Positions 59,411 through 63,119 of a stretch of 64,000 bases of DNA are shown in pieces; the first letter of the stretch is position 1; every line of letters begins with the position of its first letter. Source of the DNA: an uncultured Flavobacteriales bacterium (GTDB lineage: Bacteria > Bacteroidota > Bacteroidia > Flavobacteriales > Schleiferiaceae); assembly GCA_913055685.1 (NCBI GenBank), contig CAJXKC010000001.1, positions 186,001 through 250,000 on the forward strand. The letters run 5' to 3'. Under the pieces are notes generated by a model. The model saw nothing but the letters and a program-made list of their open reading frames with translations, was not told where the DNA came from and ran no database searches. The translations under genes were made by a program, and so were the position numbers.

Positions 59411-61063
<1,653 letters not shown>

Positions 61064-61072
61064 TTAATTAGA

Positions 61073-61354
61073 TTAACCTACAATTGCATAAATGTCCGAC
61101 TCACGCATGATCAAGTAGTCTTTACCTTCATGCTTGATTTCGGTACCACCGTACTTTCCATAAAGTACCACGTCACCAACTTTAACCGTCATTGGCTCAT
61201 CAGCTTTACCATTGCCTACCGCAACAACAACACCTTGTTGGGGTTTCTCTTGGGCAGTATCAGGAATGATAATACCGGATGCCGTAGTAGTTTCGGCAGC
61301 ACTTGCCTCAACTAGAACACGGTCTGCTAGGGGTTTTAAATTGATATCAGCCAT
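61073..61354 (-). CDS. groS: Co-chaperonin GroES
   Basis: GroES caps the GroEL ring. It has 93 residues. The start [12 protein letters not shown], the mobile loop region [35 protein letters not shown] and the end [11 protein letters not shown] are typical. It is the first gene of groS-groL. The upstream region carries candidate stress-regulatory elements. Confidence 0.98.
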
Positions 61355-61403
61355 TGTTGACTATGCTTTTAAGTTAATATTTGTTGCTTGTAAATTTGCT
61401 TGT

Positions 61404-61426
61404 GCAATAGTCAGAAAATATGCCAA
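61404..61426 (-). promoter_or_regulatory. Possible sigma-54-like element upstream of groS
   Basis: On the minus strand TTGGCATATTTTCTGAC has GG, ten bases, then GA; the sigma-54 pattern is GG-N10-GC, so it is one base off. It lies about 70 bases before the groS ATG. Confidence 0.35.
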
Positions 61427-61447
61427 GGCAGATTCACCGGTTTTTTT

Positions 61448-61487
61448 CTGTCATTCTGCCATAGGAGGCTGACAAAGTCCTGACAAG
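61448..61487 (-). repeat. Cluster of TGTCA/TGACA-type motifs upstream of groS
   Basis: TGTCA or its complement TGACA recurs three times here (CTGTCATTCTGCCA and CTGACAAAGTCCTGACAAG on the plus strand), along with TGCCA. They lie just beyond the sigma-54-like element and are candidates for heat-shock or activator binding sites. Confidence 0.4.
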
Positions 61488-61568
61488 CATTAAATAGAAG
61501 TGTCAATAATTCTCACCCAATATTCAACCTTTGGAAATTAAATCGGTTATAAAAGAAAAATATAGTAG

Positions 61569-62030
61569 ATGACACACCTTAAACCCGGGGACCAAGCCCC
61601 CGACATCAATAGTCAAGACCAGAACGGCAATCCCTTAAAATTAAGTGATTTTAAGGGTCAAAAAGTAATCCTATACTTCTACCCAAAAGACGACACCCCT
61701 GGCTGTACAGCCGAGGCTTGTAACTTTAGGGACAACTACAGTCTTTTAAAAGAAAAGGGCTTTGCGATAATTGGGGTTAGCGCCGACAATGAAGCTAAAC
61801 ATCAAAAGTTTGCCGCTAAATATGATCTCCCCTTCCCGCTAATTCCCGACACTGAAAAAGAAGTCATCAAGGCTTACGGCGTATGGGGACTAAAGAAATT
61901 CATGGGACGAGAATACGATGGTATTCACCGGGAAACCTTTGTAATTGACGAGCAGGGACTAATCGAAAAGGTATACCACAAGGTTAAAACCAAAGAAGCT
62001 ACAGAGCAGATTCTGGCGGACTTTAGTTAA
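61569..62030 (+). CDS. bcp: Thioredoxin-dependent thiol peroxidase (BCP family)
   Basis: This peroxiredoxin reduces peroxides with electrons from thioredoxin. It has 153 residues. The peroxidatic cysteine is C46 in DDTPGCTAEAC, with C51 five residues on as the likely resolving cysteine, as in E. coli BCP. The N-terminal LKPGDQAPDINSQDQNG and the later FPLIPDTEKEVIKAYGVWG are family hallmarks. It is divergent from groS, with 214 bases between, and is followed by an intrinsic terminator. Confidence 0.96.
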   Translation: MTHLKPGDQAPDINSQDQNGNPLKLSDFKGQKVILYFYPKDDTPGCTAEACNFRDNYSLLKEKGFAIIGVSADNEAKHQKFAAKYDLPFPLIPDTEKEVIKAYGVWGLKKFMGREYDGIHRETFVIDEQGLIEKVYHKVKTKEATEQILADFS

Positions 62031-62084: not shown

Positions 62085-62624
62085 TTACCGCTCGCGGTGA
62101 AAATCGAGTGAGCCTTGGTAACTAAATTGAATATCTAAATCGTTTTCATCCTTAGCTACCCCCACTATCGTGTAGGTTTCCCCATCGCGAATTACTTCGA
62201 ACTCAGCCGACTGTAGGATAAACCAGAGATCGCTATTGTTAAATACCACCGGGTTTAAAGACGATAAACCCAAACTAAAAGGGGAACGAGCCGTATCCAA
62301 ACGATAAACCCCTTCTGCCAAGCCTAAACTATCACTACTCCAAGCTTCAAAAGCTAAGAAGTAACCATGGCCTTTTACACCACTGGGAAAACCAGTGGAA
62401 TCGTAATCAATGCTGATCCCTTCTGTATACAAGACCATTTCCTGGCTGTAAGGTGAAGCATTGGCATCAGGGAAATGCATTATAAAGCCAGCCTCCATAG
62501 GAAAGCGTTCGCCGTCGATAATTAATTCTTGTGGGAAGCGTGGTTCGGGCTTCTCTTCTTCCTTAGAGCAAGCCGCTGAAATTAGCAGCACACTAAGACT
62601 TGCTATCAGTATTCTAGTTCTCAT
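62085..62624 (-). CDS. Lipoprotein of unknown function
   Basis: This is a 179-residue protein with a lipoprotein signal (MRTRILIASLSVLLISAAC, lipid-modified C19), then an acidic spacer (SKEEEKPEPRF) and a beta-rich domain. It includes repeated Tyr- and Gly-containing strands such as GYFLAFEAWSSDSLGLAEG and YTIVGVAKDENDLDIQFSYQ. I recognise no family. It is single between the bcp and secG transcripts, with its own unplaced promoter. Confidence 0.72.
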   Translation of the reverse strand: MRTRILIASLSVLLISAACSKEEEKPEPRFPQELIIDGERFPMEAGFIMHFPDANASPYSQEMVLYTEGISIDYDSTGFPSGVKGHGYFLAFEAWSSDSLGLAEGVYRLDTARSPFSLGLSSLNPVVFNNSDLWFILQSAEFEVIRDGETYTIVGVAKDENDLDIQFSYQGSLDFHRER

Positions 62625-62735: not shown

Positions 62736-63119
62736 TTAATTCTGCTCTTCCTCGTCTACGCTTTGTGGCATGTCTGAGTTCTGATCGGCAGCTCCACTTG
62801 GCAATTGGAAGTTCTGACCCGCTGGGGCAGAAGGAGTAGCAATATCTACGCTCTCTACCGCAGAAGTAGGTACCTCACCACTAGTAGTATTGGGGCTAAT
62901 TACAATATTAGCAGCCATTACCAGCACTACTAAAGCGATAGCCAAGGCCCAAGTTCCGCGGTCTAAGAAATCCGTAGTTTTCTTAACCCCTCCAAATAGC
63001 TGGGTGCCACCGCCGCCAAAAGAAGAACTTAAACCTCCTCCTTTAGGGTTTTGTACTAACACGATTAAAATAAGTAGTACACAAACGATGATAATCAATG
63101 ATGTAAGTAAAAGGGCCAT
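62736..63119 (-). CDS. secG: Preprotein translocase subunit SecG
   Basis: SecG is a small partner of SecYE in protein export. It has 127 residues with two transmembrane segments (LLTSLIIIVCVLLILIVLVQ and WALAIALVVLVMAANIVI) and the family loop QNPKGGGLSSSFGGGGTQLFGGVKK between. The C-terminal 45 residues form a Ser/Pro/Gln-rich tail beyond the usual SecG core. It starts 11 bases after the TPR protein gene and is co-transcribed with it. Confidence 0.95.
   Translation of the reverse strand: MALLLTSLIIIVCVLLILIVLVQNPKGGGLSSSFGGGGTQLFGGVKKTTDFLDRGTWALAIALVVLVMAANIVISPNTTSGEVPTSAVESVDIATPSAPAGQNFQLPSGAADQNSDMPQSVDEEEQN

Follow-up and report, generated by a model that had tools for sequence, protein, structure and literature searches.

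We found that the groSL unit of the source genome is probably transcribed from an enhancer-dependent sigma-54 promoter, and that the TGNCA boxes ahead of it are probably bound by an activator encoded in the same gene block, which would also serve dnaK and lon; this reading was obtained by sequence comparison. In the window (the whole stretch of 64 kb that was analysed, G000:C1:186001-250000), groS is preceded by a gap of 214 nt that is common to a divergent peroxiredoxin gene (Table 1). The groSL genes belong to a block with the order activator-lptE?-TPR?-secG-groSL, in which the lptE and TPR labels were given by eye and have no NCBIfam match. A putative lipoprotein gene (179 aa, 62085-62624, minus strand), also without NCBIfam match, lies between secG and the peroxiredoxin gene. 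Scanning of 61300-61620 for sigma-70 hexamers and terminators gave none.

Table 1. Features of the groS locus in the window (positions are those of the window)
Feature	Position	Strand	Basis and remarks
groS (GroES, 93 aa), regulated gene	61073..61354	-	ORF; sole PF00166 match in genome, 4.1e-34
groL (GroEL, 544 aa), 3' gene of the groS unit	59411..61045	-	ORF; TIGR02348 860.9 bits vs cut-off 582.1
Peroxiredoxin (bcp/PrxQ type thiol peroxidase), divergent from groS, same intergenic region	61569..62030	+	ORF; NF006960 181.8 bits vs cut-off 140
secG, member of the block	62736..63119	-	TIGR00810 66.2 bits vs cut-off 30.85
Expected groSL transcription start	61396..61402	-	Inferred, ~12 nt past the -12 G by sigma-54 spacing
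-12 element CTGAC	61410..61414	-	G conserved; following base A, usual C
-24 element TGGCAT	61420..61425	-	TGGCAY within 110 nt of groS in 54/56 order-level upstreams, shuffle mean 3.0
Box TGACA	61449..61453	-	28 nt 5' of -24 TGG; with 61457-61461 makes TGGCA-N3-TGACA
TGGCA half-site, partner of TGACA (TGNCA-N3-TGNCA)	61457..61461	-	Spacing 8, the preferred partner distance at relatives' groS
Box TGTCA	61470..61474	-	49 nt 5' of -24 TGG
Box TGTCA	61481..61485	-	60 nt 5' of -24 TGG
Box TGACA	61501..61505	-	80 nt 5' of -24 TGG

Sigma-54 promoters place the transcription start about 12 nt past the -12 element, have TTGC as the -12 consensus, and need RpoN together with an ATP-hydrolysing activator. 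An earlier note on this DNA had described an element about 70 bases before groS that was one base off the sigma-54 pattern. This held on closer measurement, as TGGCATATTTTCTGA at 61411-61425 on the minus strand (TGGCAT-N7-GA) has its first base 71 nt 5' of the groS ATG, and the deviating base is an A in place of C after the -12 G. The sequence TGGCATATTTTCTGA contains GG-N10-G in a TGGYAY context, by which we recognised sigma-54 promoters. The C of the consensus is absent at the window site, where GA is found, and it was not taken as defining because this base varies among orthologous sites: A in 31, C in 18, T in 5 and another base in 1 of 55 order-level groS sites; C in 28, T in 22, A in 15 and other or none in 4 of 69 named flavobacteria; and, among 34 dnaK upstreams, 24 with A, 5 with T, 2 with C, 1 with another base and 2 that have no TGGYAY site. 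The -12 G itself was nearly invariant at the groS sites. In the RpoN of the source genome (PF04552, 2.3e-53) the motif ARRTVAKYRE, which we take to be the RpoN box, is intact, so the cause of the relaxed -12 is not obvious.

Judged from the window sequence alone the predicted -24/-12 match is weak, and TGGCAY-N7-G[AC] occurs 10 times on the two strands of the 64 kb. We accepted a sigma-54 site at groS because it is conserved in relatives. For this comparison 59 genomes including the source genome were searched, groS was found in 57 of them, and 56 of the 58 loci, from 36 genera, were used; the two loci set aside were L057, which has a run of N upstream, and L058, the second copy in G036, and L038 was replaced by L134 from the same genome. 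TGGCAY-N7-G was present within 150 nt of groS in 53 of the 56 upstream regions, as compared to a mean of 0.7 and a maximum of 3 in 100 shuffles. The distance from the -24 element to the groS ATG in these 53 had a median of 64 nt and a range of 51-83. The stricter TGGCAY-N7-G[AC] was found in 48/56 (shuffle mean 0.3). The rule by which sites were chosen gave preference to a -24 match with G[AC] at -12 and so slightly favours the motif; at L028 the upstream TGGCAC was picked. RpoN was found in all 59 genomes.

The same arrangement was seen in a wider taxonomic range. Among the best 80 activator loci of a longer list from named genomes, 69 contain groS, and TGGCAY lies 38-115 nt upstream in 68 of these 69, the -12 G being present in 66. 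Each of the 68 sites from these best loci has a box within 100 nt upstream, in 55 cases exactly at -17. In the class outside the order 12 regions were inspected: seven have TGGCAY 44-69 nt before the start, two have near forms recognised by eye (G074, G088) and three have none, these three including G119, where no start was found, and one of two G092 copies, the other copy having the site. As a side observation, L227, a record titled Candidatus Rokubacteria, has the flavobacterial activator-groS block with 66% activator identity, and is probably a mislabelled or contaminated bin.

Two other kinds of promoter control were weighed against these data. An ordinary Bacteroidota sigma-A promoter (TTTG ... 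TAnnTTTG), with the sigma-54 likeness due to chance, has in its favour that SM1-3 motifs are the most abundant ones in F. psychrophilum in the available part of PMC9723704. The TAnnTTTG signal, which the earlier note had named as the finding that would speak against sigma-54, was looked for on the minus strand of the groS intergenic region and not found there; in the relatives it stayed at or below shuffle level (groS 5/56, shuffles 5.1; dnaK 1/34, shuffles 3.8), and the pair TTG-N17-23-TAnnTTTG occurred in 0/56 groS and 0/34 dnaK upstreams, which makes such a promoter very improbable. The other candidate is HrcA-CIRCE, which governs groESL in many other bacteria and, judged from the motifs in our scan, elsewhere in the phylum. 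The 30 best-scoring loci outside class Bacteroidia (L138-L167, not a random sample) gave 29 groS upstreams: 18 have CIRCE or half of it, 10 have a canonical sigma-54 site, 1 has neither and none has both. Nine of the ten sigma-54 sites came from one family, f35, and the canonical form is TGGYAC-N5-TTGC. As read from these motifs, CIRCE versus a predicted sigma-54 site before groS is a regulatory switch within the phylum. However, neither CIRCE (TTAGCACTC-N9-GAGTGCTAA) nor any CIRCE-like word was found before the window groS, in 57 order-level or in 69 named upstreams, in agreement with the earlier note, which had seen no CIRCE element, and control by HrcA is extremely improbable here.

The source genome encodes four strong PF00158 proteins, one of them within the secG-groESL block. 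The earlier note had stated that in other Bacteroidota a sigma-54 activator gene is often near this block and had suggested a search past the right edge of the window; the gene is indeed found there, at G000:C1:251434-252699 (window 65434-66699). Its product of 422 aa consists of PF00158 (13-180) with GAFTGA present and HTH_8 (381-420), with nothing N-terminal of the AAA+ domain. It is thus a type Ic activator, having Sigma54_activat with the GAFTGA loop, a Fis-type helix-turn-helix and no N-terminal sensor. The other three strong PF00158 proteins have receiver domains. An orthologue of the block activator was detected in 57/59 genomes, the two misses being 70% and 84% complete, and that of G012 is in two pieces on two contigs. 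Of the 57 genomes with groS, 38 have the activator gene upstream of it on the same strand at a distance below 8 kb; in the remaining genomes it is on another contig (16), apart on one contig (2; G046, G053) or without an entry (1; G025). This adjacency could reflect only the lptE-secG neighbourhood. Among 56 activator proteins the recognition helix, ELGISERTLYRKIK, hardly varies. The linker of about 120 residues contains a conserved stretch and is helical only in a poor model (mean pLDDT 62.4). Some reduced genomes appeared to have lost the helix-turn-helix of the activator as the match ended early, but the protein sequences retain it and this candidate was rejected.

We also noted that G040 and G053, of one family (L124, L126), have SQR and not SER in the activator recognition helix. 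Their groS upstreams (L041, L020) have TGCCA words and few TGTCA boxes, and their dnaK retains TGTCA boxes. Co-variation of the SQR helix with the scarcity of groS boxes is not claimed, since the dnaK boxes are kept.

The several TGTCA/TGACA motifs that the earlier note had mentioned ahead of the element were counted as four boxes, and they form the densest cluster in the window (4 per 110 nt; at most 2 elsewhere among the matches listed, with 36 TGTCA/TGACA words in total). One TGNCA-N3-TGNCA pair is found in the window groS upstream, the TGGCA-N3-TGACA at 61449-61461. Over the 56 order-level upstreams, 137 boxes were present 60-180 nt before groS, as compared to 14.4 ± 3.9 in shuffled sequences, which reached at most 26, and to the 12 occurrences of the reversed words; at least one box was found in 53/56 and at least two in 45/56. 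The boxes were also phased relative to the -24 element. With one count per genus, which removes relatedness only in part, the best period at groS was 10.6 bp (R = 0.586), whereas 2000 jittered sets, each scored at the period that suited it best, reached at most R = 0.351. The dnaK boxes had R(10.6) = 0.606 with the same phase as groS. At the class level R was 0.713 for 26 boxes in 16 regions (4 from the own order and 12 from other orders); the named flavobacteria gave 0.695, which fell to 0.556 when the dominant -17 box was removed. Partner distances from 5 to 16 were scored, each box pair being counted twice: at groS, the 134 boxes had full TGNCA partners at distance 8 in 29 cases on the upstream side and in 24 on the downstream side, as compared to 0-8 at other distances. 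At dnaK the preferred distance was 9 in full matches (7 and 12) and 8 in near matches (15 and 25). As TGNCA-N3-TGNCA reads identically on both strands, such a site would account for the presence of TGTCA and TGACA in every orientation.

In six loci (L010, L014, L017, L021, L024, L049) the gene that precedes groS has a terminator-like hairpin with TGTCA/TGACA in or near its loop, an example being TGCCA...CTGTCA...TGGCATTTTT. Terminator and putative enhancer site seem to be merged in these loci.

Against the preferred reading stand the GA at the -12 and the closeness of the boxes, which reach 17-28 nt from the -24 element. Enhancer sites usually lie farther from -24 than this, and because the boxes are unusually near, another protein could bind them. 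The boxes may then be sites of an unrelated repressor or activator, with the sigma-54 activator bound elsewhere or acting in solution; the role of TGTCA boxes as activator sites is itself predicted, and activators without a DNA-binding domain exist among type Ic proteins (PMC3162934, in the part available). Phasing to -24 at both groS and dnaK with the same phase argues against unrelated sites, and the symmetric TGNCA-N3-TGNCA would suit a dimer with a Fis-type domain. We therefore regard unrelated sites as unlikely.

The proposed link of dnaK and lon to the same promoter type was based on a search of the own genome with a composite pattern (a box, 10-40 nt, then TGGCAYNNNNWNNGM), in the building of which dnaK and lon were not used. 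In the whole genome four matches were obtained: groS, which was built in, dnaK, lon, and one antisense within grpE that was taken as chance. The TGTCA form of the composite gave one match, before dnaK, where the -24 starts 61 nt 5' of the ATG and boxes are at -10, -38, -89 and -119. The TGACA form gave three: groS, lon and the antisense one in grpE. At lon (L081, G000:C3:169449-169499, minus strand) the -24 lies 54 nt 5' of the ATG, with boxes at -36 and -57, 21 nt apart; the Lon match by which the gene was identified is truncated at the end of the locus and scores 483 bits over 456 of 795 positions. All three promoters, groS, dnaK and lon, have GG-N10-GA. The counts of these searches carry no weight because they do not exceed the reversed-pattern controls (TGTCA form 1 vs 6 reversed, TGACA form 3 vs 3 reversed), and it is the place of the matches that is informative. 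A strict pattern, TGGCAYANNNTNNGMC, was rejected, having 2 matches (groS and one within a gene) vs 4 in the reversed control. Conservation at dnaK was seen in the relatives: 34 dnaK upstreams were taken from the 59 genomes, and TGGYAY stands where expected in 32 of them, the remaining two, G050 and G046, having GGGCAT and CGGCAT with G at -12. The strict TGGCAY-N7-G was found in 26/34 (shuffles 0.5).

In 12 of the 59 genomes, picked for few activator matches, PF00158 was searched, and six reduced genomes (G042, G045, G046, G050, G055, G057) have a single match at E <= 1e-20, which is the block activator; RpoN is present in all six. At groS, GG-N10-G in TGGCAY context is retained in 5/6 and at least one box in 4/6, and in 5/6 a complete -24/-12 accompanied by one or more boxes is kept at groS or at dnaK. 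G045 has a groS site without box and boxes at dnaK, and G057 has no groS site, its dnaK having TGGCAT and three boxes and no -12 G. The symbiont-sized G050 consists of one contig (344,793 bases) and has RpoN and one activator, and its gene order is activator, secG-like frame (recognised by eye), TGACATTATGTCA, TGGCATATTTTTGG, groS, groL. Ahead of the -24 element of its groS lies TGACATTATGTCA, and TGACA-N3-TGTCA is kept. In 140 kb of this genome (23% G+C) TGGYAY-N7-G occurs 43 times; the groS site alone has two boxes within 100 nt, and two other sites have one box; the dnaK site of G050 has no box within 100 nt.

These genomes bear on the alternative in which one of the three response-regulator-type activators drives the sigma-54 promoter and owns the boxes, the block activator serving other genes. 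Three such strong PF00158 proteins with receiver domains are encoded in the source genome. One of them has no helix-turn-helix match, and 5 of the 6 genomes in which the block activator is found alone retain the groS site, so that we consider this alternative improbable. Neighbourhood, co-occurrence and the single-activator genomes are the grounds on which the activator is linked to the boxes. We infer that it is the block activator that occupies the phased TGNCA boxes, that these are necessary, and that the promoter is under stress control.

According to the model that we favour, the RpoN-RNA polymerase would bind -24/-12 at 61410-61425, and the sensor-less block activator, with its AAA+ domain and Fis-type helix-turn-helix, would bind TGNCA half-sites, favoured as TGNCA-N3-TGNCA at groS. 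The bound half-sites would sit on one helix face, and ATP hydrolysis by the activator would open the groSL promoter. The same pair of RpoN and block activator may also serve dnaK and lon, and since groSL, dnaK and lon would share it, they would form a protein-quality-control regulon. For a sensor-less activator, PspF-style control by a bound inhibitor is one possibility. More speculatively, and with less than even probability in our estimation, the block activator might be a dedicated proteostasis enhancer-binding protein of Bacteroidia that replaces the HrcA/sigma-32 logic. A chaperone or partner would hold the linker and misfolded protein would free the activator, inducing groESL, dnaK and lon via phased TGNCA enhancers and a sigma-54 promoter with relaxed -12; this could be the one remaining reason why RpoN is kept in the smallest genomes of flavobacterial symbionts. 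The retention of RpoN in some flavobacterial symbionts has been called unusual, and nitrogen was considered, in the part of PMC3971599 available. The single-activator genomes suggest chaperones, and not nitrogen control, as the reason for RpoN in some flavobacterial insect symbionts.

Sigma-54 control of chaperones has already been published (PMC9723704, PMC12316311, as far as their available text goes), and the groS promoter was therefore expected. In F. psychrophilum, mapped 5' ends place a sigma-54 motif (SM4) before groESL, dnaK, grpE-dnaJ, htpG, clpB and lon, and mutation showed that the sigma-54 motif matters at another operon (available part of PMC9723704). The sigma-54 reading of the earlier note is supported by these 5' ends (same part of PMC9723704), by the encoded RpoN, by the site conserved across the order and by the composite before dnaK and lon. 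The F. psychrophilum system thus shares with ours the genes groESL, dnaK and lon, the sigma-54-type -24/-12 and, on its side, mapped 5' ends; unlike the TGNCA boxes here, no upstream boxes are described in the available SM4 account (PMC9723704). Three activators might serve different clusters in F. psychrophilum, the activator being left open, and a sigma-54 regulator gene together with lptE has an SM5 promoter (locus tags 0733 and 0732, groES being 0729), according to the same part of PMC9723704. For this chaperone control, the activator of which was open in that text (PMC9723704), we propose one activator and one box. At the phylum level, sigma-54 control of GroEL, GroES, GrpE and DnaK was predicted across Bacteroidota with a matrix-based approach; this regulon is the same as here, and no activator or enhancer sites are given for these genes in the available text (PMC12316311). 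The same text cites Sabree et al. 2009 (Blattabacterium) for sigma-54-dependent GrpE and GroES, and that work may already hold part of the chaperone-RpoN idea. In the open-licence literature, as far as its text was available, no activator assignment, phased TGNCA boxes or relaxed -12 were found for flavobacterial groESL. In other classes of the phylum groESL is the target of HrcA-CIRCE promoters, which differ in signal and mechanism. The closest likeness of the block activator is with PspF of enterobacteria, a type Ic protein that also has an N-terminal AAA+ domain and a Fis-type helix-turn-helix and no receiver or sensing domain. However, the block activator stays below the PspF equivalog cut-off (TIGR02974, 265.9 vs 443.55 bits), and it differs from PspF in its linker (about 120 residues, conserved over one stretch) and in its proposed targets, which are chaperone genes.
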